Position numbers and translations under genes: made by a program. This document shows, piece after piece, positions 5,095 to 25,570 of a stretch of DNA of 45,632 nucleotides. The stretch is from an uncultured Neomegalonema sp. (GTDB taxonomy: Bacteria > Pseudomonadota > Alphaproteobacteria > Rhodobacterales > Rhodobacteraceae). Every line of letters starts with the position of its first letter. Within the stretch, counting starts at the first letter, position 1. The DNA is taken from assembly GCA_937957975.1 (NCBI GenBank), contig CALFFK010000014.1:1-45632 (forward strand). Reading direction: 5' to 3'. The notes under the pieces were generated by a model. The model saw only the letters and a program-made list of their open reading frames with translations. It was not told where the DNA came from and did no database searches.

Positions 5095-5766
5095 ATGGAG
5101 ACACCTGAAGCCCCTTCCGCGACCATGCTCGACATCCTGTCGGACCCGATCTGCCCGTGGTGCTATATCGGCAAGGCAAAGCTGGATGCCGCCTTGCGCG
5201 ATGCGCCGGAAGTGGCGCTCGATATTCATTGGCGCTGTTATCGACTTAATCCTGATATGCCTGAGGGGGGCATGGGACGCCGGGATTATCTCGAACGCAA
5301 ATTTGGCGGGCCGGAGGGCGCGAAGAACGTTTACGGGCGGATCGAACAGGCCGTGCGCGATGCGGGTCTGCCGCTGGATTTCAGCAAAATCGAACGCACG
5401 CCGAATACGCTGGATGCCCATCGCCTGATCCGCTGGGCGCGCACAACCGGGGCACAGGAAGCCGTGGTCGATGCCCTCTTCGCCGCGTATTTCGTGAACG
5501 GTGTCGATATAGGCGACCGTGATGCCCTTATTGCGATTGGCGTAGCGCAGGGCATGGATGACGATCTGCTCCGTCGTTTGTATTCTGAAGATGCCGACCG
5601 CGCGTTGTTGGAGAATGAAGATGCTCTGGCCCGCGAAATGGGTGTTACCGGCGTTCCGTGCTTTGTGCTCAATGAGACATACGCGCTGGTGGGCGCGCAG
5701 GAAACGGCGACATGGCGGCAGGTTCTGGAACGGATCGCGAAGGGTGAGACGCTGGGCGGCGAATAA
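5095..5766 (+). CDS. DsbA-family oxidoreductase, FrnE-like
   Basis: The product is 223 residues from the ATG at 5095. A TTG 36 bases upstream and Met11 (5125) are alternatives, and none has a strong ribosome site. The thioredoxin-fold active site CPWC is at residues 20-23 in DPICPWCYIGK. It is followed by the helical insertion and the cis-Pro segment VTGVPCFVLN typical of FrnE/2-hydroxychromene-carboxylate-isomerase-like proteins. There is no signal peptide, so the protein is cytoplasmic, as expected for FrnE. The likely role is thiol-disulfide exchange. The extra Cys next to the cis-Pro (GVPCF) is notable. Confidence 0.9.
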   Translation: METPEAPSATMLDILSDPICPWCYIGKAKLDAALRDAPEVALDIHWRCYRLNPDMPEGGMGRRDYLERKFGGPEGAKNVYGRIEQAVRDAGLPLDFSKIERTPNTLDAHRLIRWARTTGAQEAVVDALFAAYFVNGVDIGDRDALIAIGVAQGMDDDLLRRLYSEDADRALLENEDALAREMGVTGVPCFVLNETYALVGAQETATWRQVLERIAKGETLGGE

Positions 5767-5952
5767 TCCGCAGGGGGCATCTGTCCCCAAAAAGCGTTTC
5801 CGGACGTAAACGACTCCGAATGCCAACAATGCCCTCAGGTCATCCAGTATTATCATGCATCTGAACCGCTTTTCCGTATAAATCCCTTGTTCACTTCCTC
5901 TGCTTGTGTTTGGTTGCGCGCTGACTTTTTCAAAGACTTGCCGCGAGGCCGT

Positions 5953-7059
5953 ATGACCGAAACCGTGACGGAACGCCCCTTCGTTCATTTCGATGGTGTC
6001 CAGAAGAGCTATGACGGGGAAACCCTCGTCGTAAAGAACCTCAATCTGGAGATCGCGCCTGGCGAATTCGTCACGATGCTGGGGCCGTCGGGTTCCGGCA
6101 AGACGACATGCCTGATGATGCTGGCTGGATTCGAGGCCGCGACCCATGGGGAAATCTATCTCAAGGGTCAGCCGATCAACAACGTGCCGCCGCATAAACG
6201 CAATATCGGCATGGTGTTCCAGAACTACGCCCTGTTCCCGCATATGACCGTTGCAGAAAACCTCGCCTTCCCATTGCAGGTGCGCAAAATGCGCCGTGCT
6301 GACGTGAAGAAAAAGGTCGCCCGTGCGCTTGGCATGGTGCAAATGGATGAATTCGGCAACCGCAAGCCTGCCCAGCTTTCAGGTGGACAACAACAGCGTG
6401 TCGCTCTTGCCCGCGCACTGGTGTTTGAACCGGAACTCGTGCTAATGGATGAACCGCTTGGCGCGCTCGACAAGCAGCTTCGCGAACATATGCAATATGA
6501 GATCAAGCATATTCACGAACAGCTCGGCGTCACGGTGGTTTATGTTACCCATGACCAATCCGAGGCGCTGACCATGTCAGACCGCATCGCTGTGTTTGAT
6601 GATGGTGTGATTCAGCAGCTCGCGCGCCCCGCTGATCTTTATGAGCGGCCCGATAATGCCTTCGTCGCCCAGTTTATCGGAGAGAACAACCGTCTGCCCG
6701 GTACTGTGACCGCCATTGAGAATGGCGTGGCGCGTGTGAACCTTGACCAGGGGCCGGAAGTGCTGGCGTTGGCGGTTAATTGCGGTGAAGTGGGTAATCG
6801 TACTGTCCTGTCGATCCGCCCGGAACGGGTGCAGGTCAACAATGTGACAGGGGCAAATCGCCTTGATGGGCATGTACAGGAACTCATCTATCTCGGCGAT
6901 CATATCCGGTGTCGGATGCAGGTTTGCGGGCGTGACGATTTTATCGTTAAAGTGCCTAATTCCCCCGAACACGCCATGCTGCGTGAAGGCGAGACATGCA
7001 CGGTGGGCTGGAACACCGATGATTGCCGCGCGCTCGACTTGGCGGTTGGGGCGATGTAA
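5953..7059 (+). CDS. Polyamine-type ABC importer, ATP-binding subunit (PotA-like)
   Basis: The product is 368 residues from the ATG at 5953 with GAGG 5 bases upstream; an in-frame TTG at 5887 lacks support. Walker A GPSGSGKT is at residues 44-51, followed by the Q-loop (VFQNYALFPHMTV), signature LSGGQQQR, Walker B LVLMDEP and H-loop VTHDQ. The C-terminal TOBE region (SIRPERVQV) is typical of PotA/FbpC-class importers. It energises uptake through the two permeases at 8504-10844. Gene order ATPase, binding protein, permease, permease is usual for Pot-type operons of this group. Polyamine or a related cation is the family expectation, not proven. Confidence 0.93.
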   Translation: MTETVTERPFVHFDGVQKSYDGETLVVKNLNLEIAPGEFVTMLGPSGSGKTTCLMMLAGFEAATHGEIYLKGQPINNVPPHKRNIGMVFQNYALFPHMTVAENLAFPLQVRKMRRADVKKKVARALGMVQMDEFGNRKPAQLSGGQQQRVALARALVFEPELVLMDEPLGALDKQLREHMQYEIKHIHEQLGVTVVYVTHDQSEALTMSDRIAVFDDGVIQQLARPADLYERPDNAFVAQFIGENNRLPGTVTAIENGVARVNLDQGPEVLALAVNCGEVGNRTVLSIRPERVQVNNVTGANRLDGHVQELIYLGDHIRCRMQVCGRDDFIVKVPNSPEHAMLREGETCTVGWNTDDCRALDLAVGAM

Positions 7060-7207
7060 CCGGGGGAGGCACGTGGATGCAACGGCTTGACCGCCGGGGC
7101 GACACACGCCATCCCTCATTTATATGCAGGGTACAAAACCCGCATGGTACGACGGCGAAAGCGTATTTTTTCGCGAATGACACAAGAAAAAACCGGGAGA
7201 ATATCGG

Positions 7208-8401
7208 ATGAATCTCAAAACCCTTATCGGTGCTGCAAGCGCGCTGGCCATGACGGCCAGCATTGCCCATGCAGACAACGCGGCTGTCAAAAAAGCCCTG
7301 ATGGAAGCACAGGCGTCGATCGAAATGGCCATGGCGGCCCTTGGCGGCGGCGGCGCTGCCTATCAATTCCCCAGCCTTGATGGCGATCAGTTGACGGTCG
7401 TTTCCTGGGGTGGCGCATATACCAAAAGCCAGGTGGAAGCCTACCACAAGCCCTTCATCGCTGGCACCGGCGCGAAAGTCGTGTCCGAAGATTACAACGG
7501 TGGCCTCGCCGAAATCAAAGCACAGGTCGAAGCCGGTAATGTGACCTGGGACATCGTTGACGTGGAACTCTCGGACGCCGTGCGCGCCTGTGACGAAGGT
7601 CTCGCTGAAGAGATCGACATGTCTGCCCTGCCAAATGGCGATGACGGTTCTTCTGCTGCGGACGATTTCATCGCCGGAACGCTCGACGTGCCTTGCGCCG
7701 TACCAACCATCGTATGGTCAACCATCTTTGCCTATGATTCATCAAAGATGAAAGATGGCCCCAAGACCATCGCTGACTTCTTCGACACGAAGAAATTTCC
7801 CGGCAAGCGCGGTATCCGCAAGTCGCCCAAGGCCAATCTCGAAATGGCCCTGATGGCCGATGGCGTTGCCAACGACGAAGTCTATGACGTGCTGGGCACC
7901 GATGAAGGTGTGGACCGTGCGTTCGCCAAGCTCGACACCATCAAGGATGATGTCGTGTGGTGGGAAGCTGGCGCACAGCCTCCACAGCTTCTGGCTGACG
8001 GCGAAGTGGCAATCACGACCGCATATAATGGTCGTATCTTCAACGCCGTTGCCGCCGAAGACAAACCCTTCGAAATCGTCTGGGACGGTCAGGTATGGGA
8101 TCTCGATCTCTGGATCATCCCCAAGGGCGCGAAGAACAAGGACGCGGCGATGGAGTTCCTGAAATTCTCCACTTCGACGCAGGCTCTTGCGGATCAGGCA
8201 TCGTGGATTTCCTACGGTCCAACCCGTAAGTCCGCTGCTCCGCTGGTCGCCAGCTTCAACTCGAAGCCTGACCTGAAAATGGGTCCGCAGATGCCTACCG
8301 CACCTGAGAACTTCAAGAACGCGCTTCAGAATGACTTTGAATTCTGGGCCGACAACCAGGACGAGCTGAACGAGCGTTTCAACGCATGGCTCGCCAACTG
8401 A
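7208..8401 (+). CDS. Polyamine-type ABC importer, periplasmic binding protein (PotD/PotF-like)
   Basis: The product is 397 residues with a signal peptide (cleavage near AHA, residue 22) and GGGAG 10 bases upstream of the ATG. The mature N-terminus carries a short helical Ala/Met-rich extension and a GGGG linker. The binding-protein fold begins after this at LTVVSWGGAYTKSQVEAY, followed by TWDIVDVE, TIVWSTIFAYD, WWEAGAQPPQLLADGEVAITTAYNGRI and the C-terminal DELNERFNAWL. These are hallmarks of the PotD family. It delivers the solute to the permeases downstream. Stem-loops follow the stop codon, probably to raise expression relative to the permeases. Confidence 0.93.
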   Translation: MNLKTLIGAASALAMTASIAHADNAAVKKALMEAQASIEMAMAALGGGGAAYQFPSLDGDQLTVVSWGGAYTKSQVEAYHKPFIAGTGAKVVSEDYNGGLAEIKAQVEAGNVTWDIVDVELSDAVRACDEGLAEEIDMSALPNGDDGSSAADDFIAGTLDVPCAVPTIVWSTIFAYDSSKMKDGPKTIADFFDTKKFPGKRGIRKSPKANLEMALMADGVANDEVYDVLGTDEGVDRAFAKLDTIKDDVVWWEAGAQPPQLLADGEVAITTAYNGRIFNAVAAEDKPFEIVWDGQVWDLDLWIIPKGAKNKDAAMEFLKFSTSTQALADQASWISYGPTRKSAAPLVASFNSKPDLKMGPQMPTAPENFKNALQNDFEFWADNQDELNERFNAWLAN

Positions 8402-8411
8402 TCTGACACCC

Positions 8412-8435
8412 GCGCCGTCCCGTTCGGGATGGCGC
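8412..8435 (+). other. Stem-loop between binding-protein and permease genes
   Basis: GCGCC-G-TCCCG pairs with CGGGA-T-GGCGC around a 2-base apex, giving an 11-bp stem directly after the binding-protein stop codon. No T-tract follows, so it more likely acts as an mRNA 3'-end stabiliser or processing site than as a full terminator. Confidence 0.55.
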
Positions 8436-8447
8436 GACATTCCTGCG

Positions 8448-8477
8448 CTGCCCCCATTCCCTTGATATTGGGGGCAG
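8448..8477 (+). other. Second stem-loop after the binding-protein gene
   Basis: CTGCCCCCA pairs perfectly with TGGGGGCAG around a 12-base loop, ending 26 bases before the permease start. Together with the hairpin at 8412-8435 it forms a double hairpin of the kind that lets binding-protein mRNA outlast that of the membrane subunits. Confidence 0.55.
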
Positions 8478-8503
8478 CGGTTTAGATTTCAGGCAGGATA
8501 CGC

Positions 8504-9772
8504 ATGACCGACGCGACTGCAACTCACGGCCCTGATGGCCTTCTGCTCGCTGCTGATGGCACGCCGCTCAAGGCAAAGCTGCACCAGTCGATGAAAGCCA
8601 GCCGCCGCCGCGCCTTCGGCCTTGTGCTGCCGCTGCTGCTGTTTGTTCTCGCCAGCTTCATCATTCCGATTATCATGTTGCTCTGGACTGGTGTCAGCAA
8701 CGATACCTACGCCAGCAACATGCCACGCTCTGCCCCGCTTCTGCGCGCATGGGACGGAGCCAGCCCGCCAACCGAAGCCATGGCCGAGGCGATGGTTCTT
8801 GACATGATCGACGCCCGCAAGGCCAAGACCATCGGCAAGGTTGCCAGCCGTGTGAATCGCGAGCAATCCGGCACCCGGTCCCTTTACACAAAATCCGCCC
8901 GCCGTGCGGCAAAGATGGAAGCTCCCTTCCTCGACGCGTTGACTAAGGCTGACAAGGACTGGTCAGACCTTGAAACATGGCGCGCGACCAAAATTGCCGC
9001 GACCTCCCTGACTCCGGCCTATTACGCCGCTGCGCTTGACTACAAATATACCGCTGACGGTGAGTTTGTGGAACAGAGCGAGGAACGTCAGATCCACGTC
9101 AAGCTGTTCTGGAAGACGATCTGGGTGTCCGGTGCAGTCATGTTCTTCTGTCTTTTGCTCGGTTATCCGGTCGCTTATCTGCTTTCGCATCTACCTGCGA
9201 AGAGTGCCAATCTGCTGATGATTCTCGTTCTTTTGCCGTTCTGGACATCTTTGCTGGTCCGTACGACCGCATGGATTGCGATGCTCCAGAGTCAGGGTGT
9301 GTTGAATGACATCTTCGTCTGGATTGGCATTACGGGCGATGAACAGCGGTTCAGCCTGATCTACAATCTGACCGGCACCCTGATCGCAATGACGCATATC
9401 CTGCTGCCCTTTATGATCCTGCCAATCTATTCCGTGATGCGCGCGATCCCGCCAAGTCATGTGCGGGCTGCAAAATCCCTTGGGGCAACGAATTCGACCG
9501 CTTTCTGGCGTGTCTATTTCCCCGCAACAATTCCTGGCATTGGGGCGGGGGGCTTGCTCGTCTTCATTCTGTCAATTGGCTACTACATCACCCCCGCCCT
9601 TGTGGGAGGGCAGGATGGTCAGCTCATCTCGAACTTTATCGCCTATCATATGCAACGCTCGCTTAACTGGTCGCTGGCGGCGGCACTGGGTGGTATCCTG
9701 CTCGCCATCGTGCTGCTGCTCTATTGGCTCTATGACCGCATCGTCGGCATCGACAACATGAAGCTGGGATAG
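8504..9772 (+). CDS. Polyamine-type ABC importer, permease 1 (PotB-like) with large periplasmic insertion
   Basis: The product is 422 residues, longer than the approximately 290-310 typical of PotB. A first membrane segment at about 40-60 is followed by roughly 140 hydrophilic residues (about 61-203) before the second segment at 204-226. The remaining helices follow the usual pattern, and the coupling EAA loop is RAAKSLGATNSTAFWRVYFP. The long loop between helices 1 and 2 is Ala/Lys/Arg-rich and would face the periplasm. Similar extended loops occur in some alphaproteobacterial Pot-like permeases. It pairs with the permease at 9879-10844. Confidence 0.9.
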   Translation: MTDATATHGPDGLLLAADGTPLKAKLHQSMKASRRRAFGLVLPLLLFVLASFIIPIIMLLWTGVSNDTYASNMPRSAPLLRAWDGASPPTEAMAEAMVLDMIDARKAKTIGKVASRVNREQSGTRSLYTKSARRAAKMEAPFLDALTKADKDWSDLETWRATKIAATSLTPAYYAAALDYKYTADGEFVEQSEERQIHVKLFWKTIWVSGAVMFFCLLLGYPVAYLLSHLPAKSANLLMILVLLPFWTSLLVRTTAWIAMLQSQGVLNDIFVWIGITGDEQRFSLIYNLTGTLIAMTHILLPFMILPIYSVMRAIPPSHVRAAKSLGATNSTAFWRVYFPATIPGIGAGGLLVFILSIGYYITPALVGGQDGQLISNFIAYHMQRSLNWSLAAALGGILLAIVLLLYWLYDRIVGIDNMKLG

Positions 9773-18613: not shown

Positions 18614-19648
18614 ATGGACAGGATCAAGGCTTTTTTTACGTGGTGGTTCGGCGAATTGCGTGCTTTTTTCTCAGGGCGCAGACGGTCGCCGGTGGCGCTT
18701 GTCTTCTCGCAACACGAGATTGCGCTGTTGGAGCGGGGCACCGACACTCCTCTGGGCATCGCGGCTTTTGATGCTCCTGACCGGGCAGAGCGAATCGAGA
18801 CTTTGCGAAGCATCGCAGAGAAACGTACGGGACCAGGCACGCCAGTCGAAATCCGTCTGCCGCGCGAACAGGTTATTTTTTGCGAGATCGAAAATCCGGT
18901 CCCGGAGACCGGCACTCGCAATCTTGCCGTTAGAATCGCTGAAATGAGTGATCGCAAGGCCCATGAGCTGATCGCTGTTAGCGGCCCTGCCATCAAGTTA
19001 TCCGAAGGCGGCAAGCCCGGTATACTCGCTGCTGCGACACTCTCTGACACTGTGGGGGATGCTGTGCGGATGGCCCGGCAATGGGGCTTTGAGGCGCTGC
19101 GTGTGACCAGTGTGGACTGGCCGCGTGGCTTTGTGGATGGGCCAGAATTCTACGCGCGGGACATCCGTATTCGCTCGCCTTTTCGGTCAAAGATGCTGCT
19201 GGCGCTTGGGGCGGTTGCCGCTCTGCTGGCCGCGACGGCGGCGGCGCGGGCATTCAGCGTGCGGGCCTCGCTGGCCAACGAGGCGCGTGTTAATGATGCC
19301 CGTACGCTTCAACCGAATATCGACCTGATGAAGGTGGAGTTGAATCTGGCCGAATTCGCCCATGCCGCCTCCTCCGCCATCGAGAACCGTTCGGCAACAG
19401 TGCCGGTGTGGTACTTGCTTTCGGAGGTCGCCAAACTGCTACCCCCTGACATCGCACTCGACTCAATTGACTATCAGCCGGGGCAGATGACCCTGATTGG
19501 TGAGGGGTCATCCATCGACGTGCTCGCCCGCAACCTTGAACGCTCACCCCTCTTCAGTGGGGTTCGCATCCGAGCGACGAAGCCGCGTGGCAGGGGAACC
19601 GCCAGCTTTGACATTGGCGTCAGCGTCAATAGTCGGGGGCCGGCATGA
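18614..19648 (+). CDS. Type II secretion GspL/PilN-like protein
   Basis: The product is 344 residues. A cytoplasmic part of about 190 residues contains EIRLPREQVIF and a diverged actin-like fold. A single membrane helix at about 193-215 (MLLALGAVAALLAATAAARAF) follows. A periplasmic PilN-like domain comes next: VPVWYLLSEVAKLLPPDIALDSI and a ferredoxin-like end (LIGEGSSIDVLARNLERSPLFSGVRI). This matches GspL, which anchors the T2SS ATPase to the inner membrane. Its stop overlaps the next start as ATGA. No gspE, gspF or gspD lies nearby. Confidence 0.75.
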   Translation: MDRIKAFFTWWFGELRAFFSGRRRSPVALVFSQHEIALLERGTDTPLGIAAFDAPDRAERIETLRSIAEKRTGPGTPVEIRLPREQVIFCEIENPVPETGTRNLAVRIAEMSDRKAHELIAVSGPAIKLSEGGKPGILAAATLSDTVGDAVRMARQWGFEALRVTSVDWPRGFVDGPEFYARDIRIRSPFRSKMLLALGAVAALLAATAAARAFSVRASLANEARVNDARTLQPNIDLMKVELNLAEFAHAASSAIENRSATVPVWYLLSEVAKLLPPDIALDSIDYQPGQMTLIGEGSSIDVLARNLERSPLFSGVRIRATKPRGRGTASFDIGVSVNSRGPA

Positions 19649-20196
19649 CCTCTTCCGGGCGCAGCACTGCCGCCGCTCTCATCCTGTTCTTTGCGCTTGT
19701 CTTTGCGCTGATTGCGGCCATCGTCGTACCGACTGTAATCCGCTGGACAAGCGACGGGCGGGCGATCCGTGAGAGTCGCGAACGCTCCGCGACTATTAGC
19801 CAGCAGCAAGCGACTTTTATGCGGATCAAGAATGCTTCTGATCGCTGGGCTGTCTTCGCCAATTCACCGGATTCGGGATTTCTGGACGCGCCATCGGCTG
19901 AAGACGCGCTGGCGATGGCACGCGTGCATGTCTCGGCTCTTGTGAGCCAACACGAGGGAGTGCTGAAGAAGGTCGAGTTAAATCCCGATGAGAAAAAACG
20001 CGGGCTGGTCGATACCATTCGGGTTGACCTGACAGCCACCCTGCCAAAATCGAGCCTTGCGCTTTTTCTTGCGGAACTGGAAGATATGCCACCCTATACT
20101 CTGGTGAGTGCCTTCACAGTGACGGGCAAGCGCGATGATACTGTAACCCTGATGCTTACAGGGCAAATGCAACGTTTCGCGAAAGGGCCGTTATGA
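19645..20196 (+). CDS. Type II secretion GspM-like protein
   Basis: The product is 183 residues with one N-terminal membrane helix (AAALILFFALVFALIAAIVVP), a short coil-like stretch and a periplasmic ferredoxin-like domain ending LTGQMQRFAKGPL. The size, topology and position after the GspL-like gene and before a GspC-like gene match GspM, which pairs with GspL in the secretion platform. Sequence identity is too low to be sure from reading alone. It overlaps both neighbours by 4 bases. Confidence 0.65.
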   Translation: MTSSGRSTAAALILFFALVFALIAAIVVPTVIRWTSDGRAIRESRERSATISQQQATFMRIKNASDRWAVFANSPDSGFLDAPSAEDALAMARVHVSALVSQHEGVLKKVELNPDEKKRGLVDTIRVDLTATLPKSSLALFLAELEDMPPYTLVSAFTVTGKRDDTVTLMLTGQMQRFAKGPL

Positions 20197-20915
20197 AGCG
20201 CGATGTCGGATATGCCCTTATAGCGGCATTATCACTTAGTGCGTTGGCGGCGCTATGGGCGCTCGTCAAAGCCCCTGAACTGGCCGATCCCAAAGGGCCG
20301 GATCGGGCGCTTGGACCATCTGGCTCACTTCCTTTGCTGCCCCAGGCGCTGGACAATTCAAAAGCTATCCAGCAAGCGACCGCCGTGCTGGAAACCCGTG
20401 ACCTTTTCCGTGCTGCCGCGCCCGCTGATATGGCGACGTTGAACCGTTTGTCAGCAGCCCGGATCGCCCCGCCGGTGGAGCTTGTGCCGGTTGAGGCCAC
20501 GCCGCGCCGCTCTGCAGTAGCACAGTCCCCTTCCCCTGCGCCGGTATATCGCCCGACACCGCCCCGGACGGCCCCTGTTATTTCACAGACTGTCTTGCCT
20601 GCCCCGAGGACATTGCCCCCTCCCGTGCCTGCCCCATCACTAGCGCAGACCAATCCTGCGCCGCTGCCGCCCTCATCAACATCCCAACAGGTTGTTGTCG
20701 CGCGTGGCGGTGGGTTTCCGCTCACCCTGCGTGGGGTATTCCCGGATGCGCGCACGGGTGGACGGGCGCATGTCGCGTTGCCGAACGGGCGCGTGGTTTC
20801 GACGGGTCCGGGGGGCGTGATCGAAGGGTATCAGGTAGTACAGATCAACGCAGCTTCGATCATTGTACAGGGGCGGGGTGGGCCACGGTTGCGACTGGAA
20901 ATGCCGGGGTATTAA
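20193..20915 (+). CDS. GspC-like protein with proline-rich linker and HR-type domain
   Basis: The product is 240 residues. A short N-terminal membrane helix (residues 7-25) is followed by a long Pro/Ala linker (about 95-165). The C-terminal 70 residues (PLTLRGVFPDARTGGRAHVALPNGR ... IEGYQVVQINAASIIVQGRGG ... LRLEMPGY) resemble the homology region of GspC. There is no PDZ domain, unlike classical GspC. It would link the inner-membrane platform to an outer-membrane secretin that is not in this window. Confidence 0.65.
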   Translation: MKRDVGYALIAALSLSALAALWALVKAPELADPKGPDRALGPSGSLPLLPQALDNSKAIQQATAVLETRDLFRAAAPADMATLNRLSAARIAPPVELVPVEATPRRSAVAQSPSPAPVYRPTPPRTAPVISQTVLPAPRTLPPPVPAPSLAQTNPAPLPPSSTSQQVVVARGGGFPLTLRGVFPDARTGGRAHVALPNGRVVSTGPGGVIEGYQVVQINAASIIVQGRGGPRLRLEMPGY

Positions 20916-21398: not shown

Positions 21399-21619
21399 AC
21401 AGATGATTGTGGAACCCTCGCACGCAGTTGGCAAGAGGCAAGGTTGTCGGTGAGGCAAGGTTGTCGGTGTATAGTGAAGATTGTTCGATTGGTCCCCTGT
21501 CCGGCCGTCTTTGTGATGCGGATGGTGTTTTCTATCCGGTCATTCCCGTGGCGTTCGGGATCGGTTAACCATACCTTGTGCAGGATGTGCGCGAAACACT
21601 CCGAAGGACAAGATTGCCC

Positions 21620-22240
21620 ATGGGCTTTGACGGCATGAATTGCCCCAATTGTGGGGCCGAACTCCCCGAAACGTTGACCCATGCAAAGATGGTCGCGTGT
21701 CGGTATTGCGAGTCAACTGTCGTGCTGGAAGATGATGCCCTGCGTACCGCTGGCGAGAAAGGCGTGATGGCGGAGGAGCCATCGCTGTTCGTGCTGGGCC
21801 GCGAAATCCGGTATCGGCGGGAAAGCTGGATGCCGGTCGGGCAAGCGCGGTTTTCCTATGGTACGGGTTGGTGGGATGAATTCTGGGCAATTGATGGCGG
21901 GGGCGACGGGGTCTGGGTCAGTGTCGATGAAGGCGAGATCGCGGTTGAGCGGCCCTATGGGATTGATGTGTCGCTGTCACCGGAGCGGTTGGTGCGGGGG
22001 CGCAGTGTGGTTCTGAATGGCGAAACCTTCACGGTGACGGAGTTTGGTACGGCAACCTGCATGGCCCTGCGTGGGGAGTTTCCTGAAGAACTGCATGTCG
22101 GACAAGCCTATCAATACTGGCACCTTTCCGGGTCTATGGGGCGGTTGGTGACATTGGAATATTCGGATGGTGAATTCGCCGCTTCCGAAGGGGCATGGGT
22201 CGATCCGTATCTGATCCGGTCGGAGAACGCGAACGCATGA
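21620..22240 (+). CDS. DUF4178 protein with zinc ribbon, copy 1
   Basis: The product is 206 residues. A zinc ribbon with Cys8, Cys11, Cys27 and Cys30 (CPNCG ... CRYC) leads into a DUF4178 beta-rich domain: GREIRYRRESWMPVGQARFSYGTGWWDEFWAI, then GVWVSVDEGEI and YWHLSGSMGRLVTLEY. DUF4178 has no assigned activity. Its genes tend to sit with DUF350 and polyamine-aminopropyltransferase genes, as here. The start at 21620 is chosen over Met6 because of AAGGA 11 bases upstream; either is possible. The stop overlaps the next start as ATGA. Confidence 0.82.
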   Translation: MGFDGMNCPNCGAELPETLTHAKMVACRYCESTVVLEDDALRTAGEKGVMAEEPSLFVLGREIRYRRESWMPVGQARFSYGTGWWDEFWAIDGGGDGVWVSVDEGEIAVERPYGIDVSLSPERLVRGRSVVLNGETFTVTEFGTATCMALRGEFPEELHVGQAYQYWHLSGSMGRLVTLEYSDGEFAASEGAWVDPYLIRSENANA

Positions 22241-23508
22241 CCGACGGTTTCGCCCCTTCCGGCGCTCGCCTTGCCGCCATCAACTGCACGTCCTGCGGCT
22301 CGCCTTTGCCAGCGTTGGCGGGACACCGAAGCAAGACGCTTATCTGTAGTTATTGCGGCGCAGTCATGGACCGGCACGACGGGTATCGCCTGCTGGCCCG
22401 TTATCGCGACATGGATCGCCCTGATGGCCCATTCAGGATCGGCATGAACGGCGAGGTCATGGGCGTCGAACAGACCATTGTTGGTATTGTAGGAGTTGAT
22501 GCGGTTATCGAAGGGTACAGATACGACTGGACCAATTATCAGCTTTACAGCCCAACCCATGGCTATAGCTGGCTGACATGGGCTGACGGTCATATCACCC
22601 ATTCGCGCAAGACCCGCGATATGCCTGAATCGAGCGGAAGCTTTGCCTACAAGGCTCCTATTGCCGCCGCAGGTCGCGCTTTTCAAATGTTCGAGCAATA
22701 TGCCGCCCGGATCACGTATCTGGAGGGCGAATTAACATGGGTGCCAAGCCTTGGCGACCAAACCCAGGTGATCGAGACCATCGACCCGCCTCATGGCTAT
22801 TCGATCGTCATGGGCGATAATGAGACAGAATTCGAGTTTGGCACTTATTTGGACCGCGCAGAAACCCTGGCCGCTTTCGGCATTGAGGACAGCTTTCCGC
22901 GCGCCTATACGGTTCACGCAATCCAGCCCTTCCTGCCTGGTTCCCTGCACATGGCGCTGTCAAAGGTGGGCAGTATCTTCGCGATTGTTGCACTCGTGAT
23001 CGGGCTTGCATTTCTTGCTATCGGAAACGGCCAGAAGATCACCGAGACGGTAATCGTCGATACCGATGCGGGCGGCTCCGTCATGTTTCCGCTTAACCGT
23101 CCGAGTCGGTTGGCAGAGGTGCGCCTGACGGCGAATGTCGTGAATTCGTGGTCATGGTACGATATGGAACTCGTCCATGAGGATTCCGACGAAACGGTCG
23201 CTGAATTCGACGGAGGGTTGGAATATTACGAAGGCTATGACAGCGATGGACGCTGGACCGAAGGCTCGCAGACCGCGACATTCCGGTTCAAACCCCCTGC
23301 TGCAGGGGCGTATCGCCTGACGATTACAACGGGCGATCCCCAATCCGCGCGGTTGCCGGTCAAGGTGGAGGTGCGCGAAAACGTGATGCTGTCGCGCTAT
23401 CTATTCGGTCTCGCCATTTTCTTTACGCTATGCTGGTTGAGCTTGTGGCTGCGCAGCCGGGCATTCGAGGCGAAGCGTTGGGGTGATGACGGGGAGGACG
23501 ACGATTGA
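22237..23508 (+). CDS. DUF4178 protein with zinc ribbon and membrane segments, copy 2
   Basis: The product is 423 residues. A zinc ribbon (Cys17, Cys20, Cys37, Cys40) precedes a DUF4178 domain (QTIVGIVGVDAVIEGYRYDWTNYQLYSPTHGYSWLTW). A membrane helix near 247-264 (IFAIVALVIGLAFLAI) is followed by an extracytoplasmic beta domain of about 120 residues and a second helix (YLFGLAIFFTLCWLSLWL) near the C-terminus. The tail is acidic (GDDGEDDD). It could bring DUF4178 to the membrane with an exported sensor-like domain. Translation is coupled to both neighbours by overlap. Confidence 0.82.
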   Translation: MTDGFAPSGARLAAINCTSCGSPLPALAGHRSKTLICSYCGAVMDRHDGYRLLARYRDMDRPDGPFRIGMNGEVMGVEQTIVGIVGVDAVIEGYRYDWTNYQLYSPTHGYSWLTWADGHITHSRKTRDMPESSGSFAYKAPIAAAGRAFQMFEQYAARITYLEGELTWVPSLGDQTQVIETIDPPHGYSIVMGDNETEFEFGTYLDRAETLAAFGIEDSFPRAYTVHAIQPFLPGSLHMALSKVGSIFAIVALVIGLAFLAIGNGQKITETVIVDTDAGGSVMFPLNRPSRLAEVRLTANVVNSWSWYDMELVHEDSDETVAEFDGGLEYYEGYDSDGRWTEGSQTATFRFKPPAAGAYRLTITTGDPQSARLPVKVEVRENVMLSRYLFGLAIFFTLCWLSLWLRSRAFEAKRWGDDGEDDD

Positions 23509-23657
23509 CCAGAATCGTGTTCGTGGTCTTCGCACTCGCTACCGGAGGGGCCACATGGGCGGGTATCTACGGGATCGGGGGCGAGGACGCCCAGATCGCC
23601 AAATCCATTCGTTCCGGCAGCGGCGGGCGGATCGGTTACATCGGGGGTGTGAAATGA
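23505..23657 (+). CDS. Small membrane peptide in the DUF4178 operon (TTG start)
   Basis: A 50-residue product starting at TTG 23505, overlapping the previous stop by 4 bases, with GGGGAGG 9-15 bases upstream. It has one hydrophobic N-terminal segment (IVFVVFALATGGATWAGIYGIGG) and a Gly/Ser/Lys-rich tail. I do not recognise the family. Position, overlap and ribosome site make it a likely gene. Membrane insertion or export is inferred. Confidence 0.6.
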   Translation: MTRIVFVVFALATGGATWAGIYGIGGEDAQIAKSIRSGSGGRIGYIGGVK

Positions 23658-23685
23658 CCGCCCTCTCACCACGAAAGGATATTCC

Positions 23686-23910
23686 ATGGACATAGGGTCC
23701 GCCATTTCCATCGCGGAGGTGATCGCGACGATCTTCTACGCCTTTCTTGGGCTTGTGTTGATGATCGTCAGTTACATCATCATTGACGCCCTGACCCCCT
23801 TCTCACTGCACGAGGAACTGTCGGGCAAGGCCAACACGGCGGTGGCCATAGTGATGGGATCGGTAATGATCTCGCTCGCAATCCTGATCGCGAACGTCAT
23901 CAACTCTTGA
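23686..23910 (+). CDS. DUF350 (YjfL-like) membrane protein, half size
   Basis: The product is 74 residues with two membrane helices (about 11-33 and 49-71) linked by DALTPFSLHEELSGKANTAVAIVMGS. The central LTPFxLxxEL...NxAxAI is the DUF350 signature. Many members have two such repeats and four helices; this one has a single unit, so it may work as an oligomer. DUF350 genes are found with polyamine and glutathionylspermidine genes in several bacteria (for example yjfL in the E. coli yjf operon). AAAGGA lies 9 bases upstream. Confidence 0.85.
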   Translation: MDIGSAISIAEVIATIFYAFLGLVLMIVSYIIIDALTPFSLHEELSGKANTAVAIVMGSVMISLAILIANVINS

Positions 23911-24034
23911 CCTGTGGTTGGCGTGTGGTTTCGGATGCTGTGGCATCACTGCCCCTGGCAAAAACCGGGTGGCTTGTGCAACCCGTAGAGGCCGCCTCCG
24001 GTCTTTGCCGGGAACAATGGTTTGACACATTGCC

Positions 24035-25570
24035 ATGACCATCCCTTCCCGCGCCACTGATCTTGCCCTGCTTGGGGCCACTTTTGTCATTGCAATTTGC
24101 GGCCTTGTCTACGAACTCGTTGCAGGGTCGGTTTCCAGCTACCTTCTGGGCGACAGCGTTTATCATTTTTCCCTCGTCATTGGCCTCTTTATGACGGCCA
24201 TGGGGATCGGGGCGTATCTATCCCGGCATGTGGCCGACCCTGAACCGACTTTTGTGGGGGCTCAGATTGCGCTGGGGTTAATCGGCGGATTTTCCGCCAT
24301 GATCCTGTTCACGGCCTTTGCACTGATCGAGAATTACAGCGCTTTCCTTTTTCTCGTGAGCCTTGTGATCGGGGCGCTGGTCGGCCTTGAGATTCCGCTG
24401 GTCATCCGCATCCTTGAAGGGCGCAATGCCCTGAAAGTAACGGTCTCGAACGTGCTGACGGCAGATTACATCGGGGCTCTGGCCGCCGCGTTGCTGTTTC
24501 CGCTGGTACTGGTTCCGCAGCTTGGGTTGATGGGGGCATCTTTCCTGCTCGGTGCGCTGAATCTTGCGGTTGCGGCGATGGGTTTATGGCTGTTCCGGGC
24601 GCGATGTGGAACGGGGTTGCGCGCAGCTTTTGCCTTGTCTGTGGTCGCCGTTGGACTTGGCGCGTGGCAGAGCGAGGCCGCGTTGGGCGCGATGGAGCGG
24701 CGGCTCTATGAAAACGAGATCGTGCTGGCCCGCGATACACCCTATCAGCGGGTCGTTGTCGCGCGAGATGGAAAGCGGGTGCAGCTTTTCCTGAATGGTT
24801 CGATCCAGTTCGATACGCTGGATGAACATCGTTATCACGAATCGCTTGTTCATCCTGCCATGACCCACGCCCCGCGCATCGCTCGCGTGCTTATCCTTGG
24901 TGGCGGCGATGGCATGGCAACCCGCGAGGTGCTGCGCTACGAAACAGTGGAGCAGATCGTTCTTGTGGACATCGACCCGGAGGTCACGGCCCTGTTTCGC
25001 GATAATGCCGCGTTGGCCCCGCTGAACAGCCATGCCTTGTCAGACCCGCGTGTCGAGATCGTCAATGCCGATGCGTGGGAATATCTTAAGGATGGAACCG
25101 ATCCTTTCGATGTGGCGATACTCGACTTGCCGGACCCCAAGGATTTGGCAGTGGCTAAACTCTATAGTCGCGCGTTCTATTCGACACTGGCCTCACGCAT
25201 GGCAGCGGGAGGTGTGATCGTCACGCAAGCGACCTCGCCACTCTATGCGCGAAAAGCGTTCTGGACCGTGGAGGCGACCCTTGCCGCGACCCTTGACCCG
25301 TTTTCGAACGAGAGGACGCTGAAGACGATCCCCTATCATGCATATATTCCGAGTTTCGGAGAATGGGGCTTCGTGTTGGCCGGAGCGCGTCTGTCATCCG
25401 CGCCGCGTCGCGCGATGCCGGATGGCTTGCGGTTTCTGGATGGCGACGCCTTCCCCGCCATGCGTCGCTTCCCTGCGGACATGGCGCGCCTCGACAGCCA
25501 GGCAGCTACCCTGTTCGATCAACCCCTGCCAAGATTGTATGAAGAAGGCTGGAGTGAGTGGTTCGAGTGA
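24035..25570 (+). CDS. Membrane-fused polyamine aminopropyltransferase (spermidine synthase-like)
   Basis: The product is 511 residues. About 200 N-terminal residues hold seven or so membrane helices (LALLGATFVIAICGLVYELVAG and onward). A spermidine-synthase-fold domain follows: QRVVVARDGKRVQLFLNGSIQFDTLDEHRYHESLVHPAM, GGGDG at about 289-293, VDIDPEV and DLPDPKDLAVAKLYSRAFY, with the catalytic Asp near 364. It would move an aminopropyl group from decarboxylated S-adenosylmethionine to an amine. No speD lies nearby. It sits 124 bases after the DUF350 gene and closes the DUF4178 block. Confidence 0.9.
   Translation: MTIPSRATDLALLGATFVIAICGLVYELVAGSVSSYLLGDSVYHFSLVIGLFMTAMGIGAYLSRHVADPEPTFVGAQIALGLIGGFSAMILFTAFALIENYSAFLFLVSLVIGALVGLEIPLVIRILEGRNALKVTVSNVLTADYIGALAAALLFPLVLVPQLGLMGASFLLGALNLAVAAMGLWLFRARCGTGLRAAFALSVVAVGLGAWQSEAALGAMERRLYENEIVLARDTPYQRVVVARDGKRVQLFLNGSIQFDTLDEHRYHESLVHPAMTHAPRIARVLILGGGDGMATREVLRYETVEQIVLVDIDPEVTALFRDNAALAPLNSHALSDPRVEIVNADAWEYLKDGTDPFDVAILDLPDPKDLAVAKLYSRAFYSTLASRMAAGGVIVTQATSPLYARKAFWTVEATLAATLDPFSNERTLKTIPYHAYIPSFGEWGFVLAGARLSSAPRRAMPDGLRFLDGDAFPAMRRFPADMARLDSQAATLFDQPLPRLYEEGWSEWFE

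Follow-up and report, generated by a model that had tools for sequence, protein, structure and literature searches.

Within a window of 45,632 nucleotides from an uncultured Neomegalonema sp. (contig CALFFK010000014.1; the window is the whole stretch of DNA that was analysed) we examined a block of five open reading frames (ORFs) on the plus strand, at positions 21620-25570, which encodes two zinc-ribbon DUF4178 proteins, a small single-helix membrane peptide, a half-size DUF350 protein and a predicted membrane-bound aminopropyltransferase. All five genes are genuine, were correctly located and are conserved together as a unit, and by its sequence the small peptide is a dedicated partner with a lysine-ended tail, the kind of partner that a system acting on protein lysines calls for. 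All five ORFs lay, when checked against the sequence, where an earlier sequence-only reading of this DNA had placed them; that reading made no mention of the lysine tail, which we take to be the key part of the block. The 4-base overlaps of the first three genes and the close spacing of the next two were borne out as well: genes 1 and 2 have ATGA in common and genes 2 and 3 TTGA, and gaps of 28 nt and 124 nt separate gene 3 from the DUF350 gene and the DUF350 gene from the synthase gene, respectively.

Pfam and NCBIfam scores confirmed the earlier assignments of two zinc-ribbon DUF4178 proteins, a half-size DUF350 and a membrane-fused synthase. Gene 1 (21620..22240, 206 residues) matches PF13785 with 61 bits against a cut-off of 25, and no membrane helix was seen in it when looked for; its start was taken as the ATG at 21620, with an alternative in-frame GTG at 21578. 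Gene 2 (22237..23508, 423 residues; PF13785, 38.5 bits against the same cut-off of 25) carries two membrane helices (residues 236-262 and 387-415) flanking a beta-sandwich domain (264-383) and has an acidic C-terminus, and in both proteins paired CxxC motifs precede the DUF4178 domain. The exported sandwich domain of gene 2 resembles GOLD/PPC domains. Relatives of gene 2 that bear names are mostly alphaproteobacterial, Paracoccaceae included. Across relatives the acidic end is conserved, often as SDWxDDD, and the peptide of the next gene is lysine-ended.

Gene 3 (23505..23657) encodes a 50-residue peptide with a single helix and a Gly/Ser-rich tail ending in ...SIRSGSGGRIGYIGGVK, whose C-terminal lysine is the proposed aminopropyl acceptor. 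It starts with TTG, 7 nt downstream of a Shine-Dalgarno-like ggggagg at 23491..23497 on the same strand. Ten database proteins, the peptide's own record counted, hold its last 17 residues nearly constant while the helix varies, indicating that gene 3 is a real gene; this conservation, together with the blind ORF pick described below, led us to reject a chance small ORF. Gene 4 (23686..23910, 74 residues) matches PF03994 with 50 bits against a cut-off of 26, covering profile positions 4-66 of 133, and gene 5 (24035..25570, 511 residues) fuses a seven-helix domain to an aminopropyltransferase domain at about residues 219-506 (Spermine_synth, 121.7 bits).

Conservation and layouts of the block

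Conservation of the block was examined in 295 genomes of the host's own family, with a synthase threshold of 1e-80. DUF4178 occurs in 22 of them, the synthase in 25 and DUF350 in 24, and DUF4178, half-size DUF350 and synthase are found together in 21, compared with about 1.9 genomes expected to share DUF4178 and synthase by chance. The gene-neighbourhood search that had been proposed for the whole block thus came out in its favour. Half-size DUF350 is present in 21 of the 24 DUF350-bearing genomes, every time inside the block; the DUF350s of the other three are full-length and their genomes lack the block. In the single DUF4178 genome without the remaining genes (G299) the contig ends within the block (locus L080), and DUF4178 is missing from four of the synthase-bearing genomes. 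Few genomes of the class sample (3 of 142) carry DUF4178. Among the 299 genomes of the phylum sample it occurs in 20 and the synthase (1e-60) in 21, with both in 18; in the other two DUF4178 genomes the same locus carries a synthase that is more distantly related (L099, L103), and three genomes (G572, G583, G613) have the synthase and no DUF4178 match.

The block recurs as a unit across many phyla, which supports the earlier proposal of a conserved membrane-bound aminopropyl system, and it does so in several layouts. Layout A, as in the window, runs DUF4178, DUF4178 with helices, peptide, half DUF350, synthase. In layout B two DUF4178 domains are fused or adjacent and accompanied by DUF350, frequently with a Band-7 protein (Pfam, L104 and L108) and at some loci with speD and a flavoprotein (Amino_oxidase above the cut-off in L105, L111 and L264; by annotation in L148). 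Layout C has the order DUF4178, double DUF350, DUF4178, small membrane protein, synthase, with PspA and CesT/Tir (Pfam, L098); it is the operon form described in the examined text of Ravi et al. 2024 (PMC11237479). A further form in the host's family (L141-L145) pairs the synthase with an anchored lysine-ended protein of about 200 residues. The L141 cluster (5554-9585) additionally contains speD and a gene for a rhomboid fused to a GNAT acetyltransferase (Pfam), a hint that amines may be modified further or the tail processed, and L142-L145 have a similar layout. Genome G361 has both the DUF4178 block (L087) and the rhomboid-GNAT form (L141), and a separate synthase and lysine-ended tail go with each of them.

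In the window, an opposite-strand DUF2794 gene lies upstream of the block and an opposite-strand SLT-type lytic transglycosylase gene downstream. Further upstream, at 18614-20915, three overlapping ORFs may, judged by eye, resemble inner-membrane components of a type II secretion system.

The C-terminal lysine of the membrane-anchored tails

Tails were compared in three sets of loci. Set 1 comprises 42 DUF4178-anchored loci, the window among them. Set 2 comprises 15 loci obtained after the lysine idea had been written down; its first 11 are five synthase loci lacking DUF4178 plus six of 13 matching plasmid records, one per genus, with Rhodovulum omitted as a partial match. Set 3 holds the best 80 synthase loci from a scan of named genomes, from groups that include Gemmatimonadota, Acidobacteria, Proteobacteria, Elusimicrobia, Leptospiraceae, Bacteroidota, Myxococcales, Fibrobacteres and Verrucomicrobia; actinobacterial members of the lysine-tail system lie outside the sampled loci. 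A membrane-anchored tail ending in lysine was found at 132 of these 137 loci, namely 40/42 in set 1, 14/15 in set 2 and 78/80 in set 3. In set 2 the tail had been predicted in advance and was present at 11 of 11 loci of the first hold-out group and then at three of four (L266-L269). Contig ends account for three of the five misses (L080, L260 and L261), and a fourth, L106, is an isolated DUF4178 gene with the tail and synthase of the same genome on another contig (L266); the fifth is L268.

The lysine is constant across anchors of quite different kinds: 50-residue peptides, membrane proteins of 80-100 and of 200 residues, lipoproteins and the C-termini of fused DUF4178 proteins. Layout-A loci carry a short ORF in the gap before DUF350 with the end pattern ...S[VI]RxGSxG...[VI]K, and in the other layouts the ends read GGK in single-helix proteins of 80-100 residues, GGxHK in fused DUF4178 proteins, HK in peptides and RRGK in a lipoprotein. 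The residue at position -2 varies, being G or H in set 3 but V or I in the host's family, which leaves the lysine as the fixed part.

Within set 3, DUF4178 lies in the retrieved stretch of 66 of the 80 loci, and all 66 have the tail. An initial scan for tails (at least 5 Gly/Ser near the end, helix score 1.7) gave Lys-ending candidates, some of them chance frames, in 24 of the 80 loci; because many tails are rich in Arg and Tyr, the Gly/Ser rule was dropped in favour of position, length and helix. The resulting blind pick took the ORF of 40-85 residues after DUF4178 with the best helix score, excluding DUF350 and ignoring the terminal residue, and all 50 stand-alone peptides chosen in this way end in lysine. 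Seventeen loci that had first been read by eye, from lists also holding DUF350 and out-of-frame ORFs, were repeated by the blind pick; the 16 fused cases, having been recognised by ending in K themselves, are not blind. For background, lysine ends 61 of 1137 mechanical ORFs of at least 250 residues and 4.1% of 5307 ORFs of 40-120 residues, many of which are not genes.

A sister system allowed a comparison: in it a Gly/Ser-tailed lipoprotein adjoins an ATP-grasp enzyme, named peptide-spermidine ligase in RefSeq, often together with DUF350 and PspA. Our sample consisted of the two E. coli K-12 partners and seven from eight plasmid loci (L272 has none adjacent), out of 147 matching records. None of these nine tails ends in lysine; seven end in Gly and two in Ser. 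Ligases require a carboxyl group, whereas aminopropyltransferases require an amine, and in each system the terminal residue is chemically suitable; by this analysis the ligase-system tails may be ligase substrates with a last residue matched to the reaction. No ATP-grasp ligase gene is among the five of the block, the rest of the genome not having been searched for one. At a Pseudarthrobacter locus (L278:3396-3893) a protein annotated as tRNA-dihydrouridine synthase (WP_191082256.1) appears from its sequence to be a lipoprotein with a Gly/Ser-rich tail adjoining an ATP-grasp ligase, and the annotation looks wrong.

The enzyme, its donor and its candidate acceptors

Gene 5 belongs to the NCBIfam family PRK03612, polyamine aminopropyltransferase (605.3 bits against a cut-off of 472), and scores below the cut-offs of the classical SpeE model TIGR00417 (123.8 versus 249.55) and of NF037959, the model for fused major facilitator superfamily (MFS)/spermidine synthases (38 versus 40). 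It is predicted to contain the full aminopropyltransferase fold, in which GGGDG and D-x4-D-x-P-D-P are invariant in 62 sequences. GGGDG, the motif on the side of decarboxylated S-adenosylmethionine (dcSAM), is thus kept, whereas the acceptor-side motifs read QxTSP and PSFGxWG in the gene 5 family versus QNGVPF and VPSYAGG in the host's own SpeE. Fold searches assigned no fold to the helical domain, as the matches were filled by the catalytic domain, nor to the DUF4178 domain. Based on loop charges we predict that the catalytic domain lies outside the cytoplasm, where the tails should also lie: across the 62 sequences Lys and Arg average 2.52, 3.82 and 2.97 per sequence in loops 2, 4 and 6 (some in 62/62), versus 0.00, 0.02 and 0.39 in loops 1, 3 and 5 and 0.90 after helix 7, where Asp and Glu average 2.39.

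The sequence-only reading had seen no speD nearby and had considered an unusual donor or acceptor. The absence of speD holds locally and fails genome-wide, as speD and a canonical speE are adjacent on another contig, and speD also lies inside related clusters (L096, L101, L104, L112, L141 and L145 by Pfam; L148 and L151 by annotation). The donor is therefore probably the usual dcSAM, and with GGGDG kept as well we rejected an unusual one. An unusual acceptor gained indirect support, given the canonical speD-speE pair of the host, which should leave it without need of gene 5 for spermidine, and the block's own lysine-ending peptide. PspA is missing from the block and has no match in the host genome assembly (93.6% complete), so dependence on PspA was rejected for this genome. 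An unlinked Band-7 protein with a GYF_2 domain (contig C25:6422-7537, L270), homologous (46%) to the block-linked Band-7 protein of Novosphingobium, is a possible scaffold partner.

The reading that we tentatively favour, while holding it short of probable, is that the gene 5 enzyme aminopropylates the C-terminal lysine of the peptide outside the cytoplasm. In this mechanism SpeD would make dcSAM, which would reach the outer face by way of the seven-helix domain of the enzyme or a DUF350 pore. The peptide would be anchored by its single helix with the tail outside, as suggested by relatives with lipoprotein, signal-anchor and fused forms, and the enzyme, on the outer face of the inner membrane, would move aminopropyl groups from dcSAM to the tail lysine, once or more. 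Because its side chain ends in a butylamine, lysine resembles putrescine, the usual acceptor of the enzyme fold. The zinc-ribbon DUF4178 proteins may assemble or gate the complex at the membrane, and in relatives Band-7 or PspA scaffolds and an amine-oxidase-like flavoprotein join the set. The outcome would be a polycationic tail on the surface of the membrane.

Several points weigh against this reading. Since dcSAM is made in the cytoplasm, a catalytic domain outside needs dcSAM export, and this export is one of the two strongest doubts, the other being the chemistry, as the reading rests on sequence. The count of seven helices derives from hydropathy and charge, with helix 2 weakly hydrophobic, and DSSP on a predicted model gives one unbroken helix (133-186) where two membrane passes were counted; with an even number of helices the catalytic domain would lie inside. 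Cysteine depletion is mixed, the domain being Cys-free in 16/16 sequences of one alignment and in only 23/62 of the other, and was not relied on as proof of an outside location. Moreover, the synthase contig L268 (7.2 kb) has no tail, and 14 of the 80 set 3 synthase loci have neither DUF4178 nor tail nearby, showing that the tail does not always lie beside the synthase; all 14 genomes have DUF4178 elsewhere, 12 with the tail there and the other two (L260, L261) cut by contig ends. The loci are interrelated and the sets may share species, so that the counts are not independent trials, and the NCBI model names the gene 5 family simply polyamine aminopropyltransferase.

Of the alternatives, the one that survives best, although we regard it as unlikely, is that the enzyme modifies another envelope molecule, such as a lipid head group, lipopolysaccharide or a cell-wall amine, and that the lysine-ended peptide serves as a small subunit or a scaffold and docks through its charged tail. 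A catalytic domain predicted to lie outside and the membrane-stress scaffolds that neighbour the block in relatives would suit it, and the examined text of Ravi et al. 2024 (PMC11237479) likewise suggests aminopropylation of other substrates. A docking tail, however, needs no lysine as the sole invariant last residue across unrelated anchors, and the Gly or Ser in place of lysine beside ATP-grasp ligases is left unexplained.

Ranking behind it, and doubtful too, is the view that the membrane-bound enzyme makes a free polyamine (spermidine or a less common one) at the membrane, with the peptide in a regulatory role only. The complete aminopropyltransferase fold with its motifs and the NCBIfam family name are what such an enzyme would show; against it stand the speD and canonical speE already in the genome, the score under the cut-off of the classical speE model and acceptor-side motifs unlike those of the host's own SpeE. 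Membrane fusions of such a kind, in work attributed to Li et al. 2019, reportedly do not replace spermidine synthase in E. coli. That the lysine is modified while the tail is still in the cytoplasm, ahead of its passage across the membrane, or that the catalytic domain faces inward, is improbable: it would dispense with export of the cytoplasmic dcSAM and would accord with the uncertain helix count, but the loop charges place the domain outside and the fused forms appear to consist of cytoplasmic zinc ribbons, one helix and the tail, so that the finished tail should be outside.

Related systems and biological meaning

The operon type is already known, and what is new here is the lysine-ended dedicated partner. 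A PspA-CesT/Tir operon with a seven-transmembrane spermine/spermidine-synthase-like protein, DUF350, DUF4178 and a lipoprotein appears in the examined text of Ravi et al. 2024 (PMC11237479), which makes no mention of the lysine tail. As far as that text describes it, it shares with the window block a seven-helix synthase of the same family, DUF350 and DUF4178 in one operon and a membrane or lipoprotein partner, whereas the window block is without PspA and has two DUF4178 genes in a row, a half-size DUF350 and the 50-residue peptide in place of the lipoprotein. The E. coli operons yjfIJKLMC and ygiBC, with the peptide-spermidine ligases YjfC and YgiC (RefSeq names; Pederick et al. 2023, as cited in the examined part of PMC12568646), likewise place beside a polyamine-handling enzyme a partner that is anchored in the membrane and has a Gly/Ser-rich tail, and DUF350 and PspA are often present too; unlike in the window block, an ATP-grasp ligase is the enzyme and Gly or Ser the last residue of the tail (9/9 in our ligase sample). 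The C-terminal domain of gene 5 shares its predicted fold and its dcSAM-side and catalytic motifs with soluble SpeE (e.g. 1uir, 7xif, 3o4f) and differs from it in the fused seven helices and the acceptor-side motifs. Polyamine-type groups on protein lysine side chains occur in hypusine on IF5A and in the polyamine-modified lysines of diatom silaffins, which are also Gly/Ser-rich; these involve other enzymes and places, and the window case is bacterial, membrane-anchored, C-terminal and proposed.

The literature searched, in which subscription papers were mostly outside coverage and an earlier mention is possible, held no paper on a C-terminal lysine tail beside such enzymes or on the contrast with ATP-grasp ligases. 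A more general proposal, which we put forward with greater reserve than the aminopropylation of this one peptide, is a bacterial system for extracytoplasmic protein aminopropylation in which a membrane-fused enzyme would pass dcSAM across the membrane and build polyamine chains on the C-terminal Lys of dedicated anchored tails. Together with the ATP-grasp enzymes YjfC/YgiC there would then be two chemistries for placing polycations on the ends of Gly/Ser-rich surface tails, and whether a tail finishes in Lys or Gly would indicate the enzyme that acts on it.

Membrane-fused aminopropyltransferases are common, with at least 584 relatives in a scan of bacterial genomes, and are named as polyamine makers; no stated substrate for them was found in the literature searched. 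A partner with one invariant residue makes the substrate question directly testable. If the proposal is true, the target of an orphan enzyme would be known, the company that DUF350, DUF4178, PspA and Band-7 proteins keep with polyamine genes would be explained, and the tails would represent a new protein modification and a new route to positive charge on the bacterial envelope.

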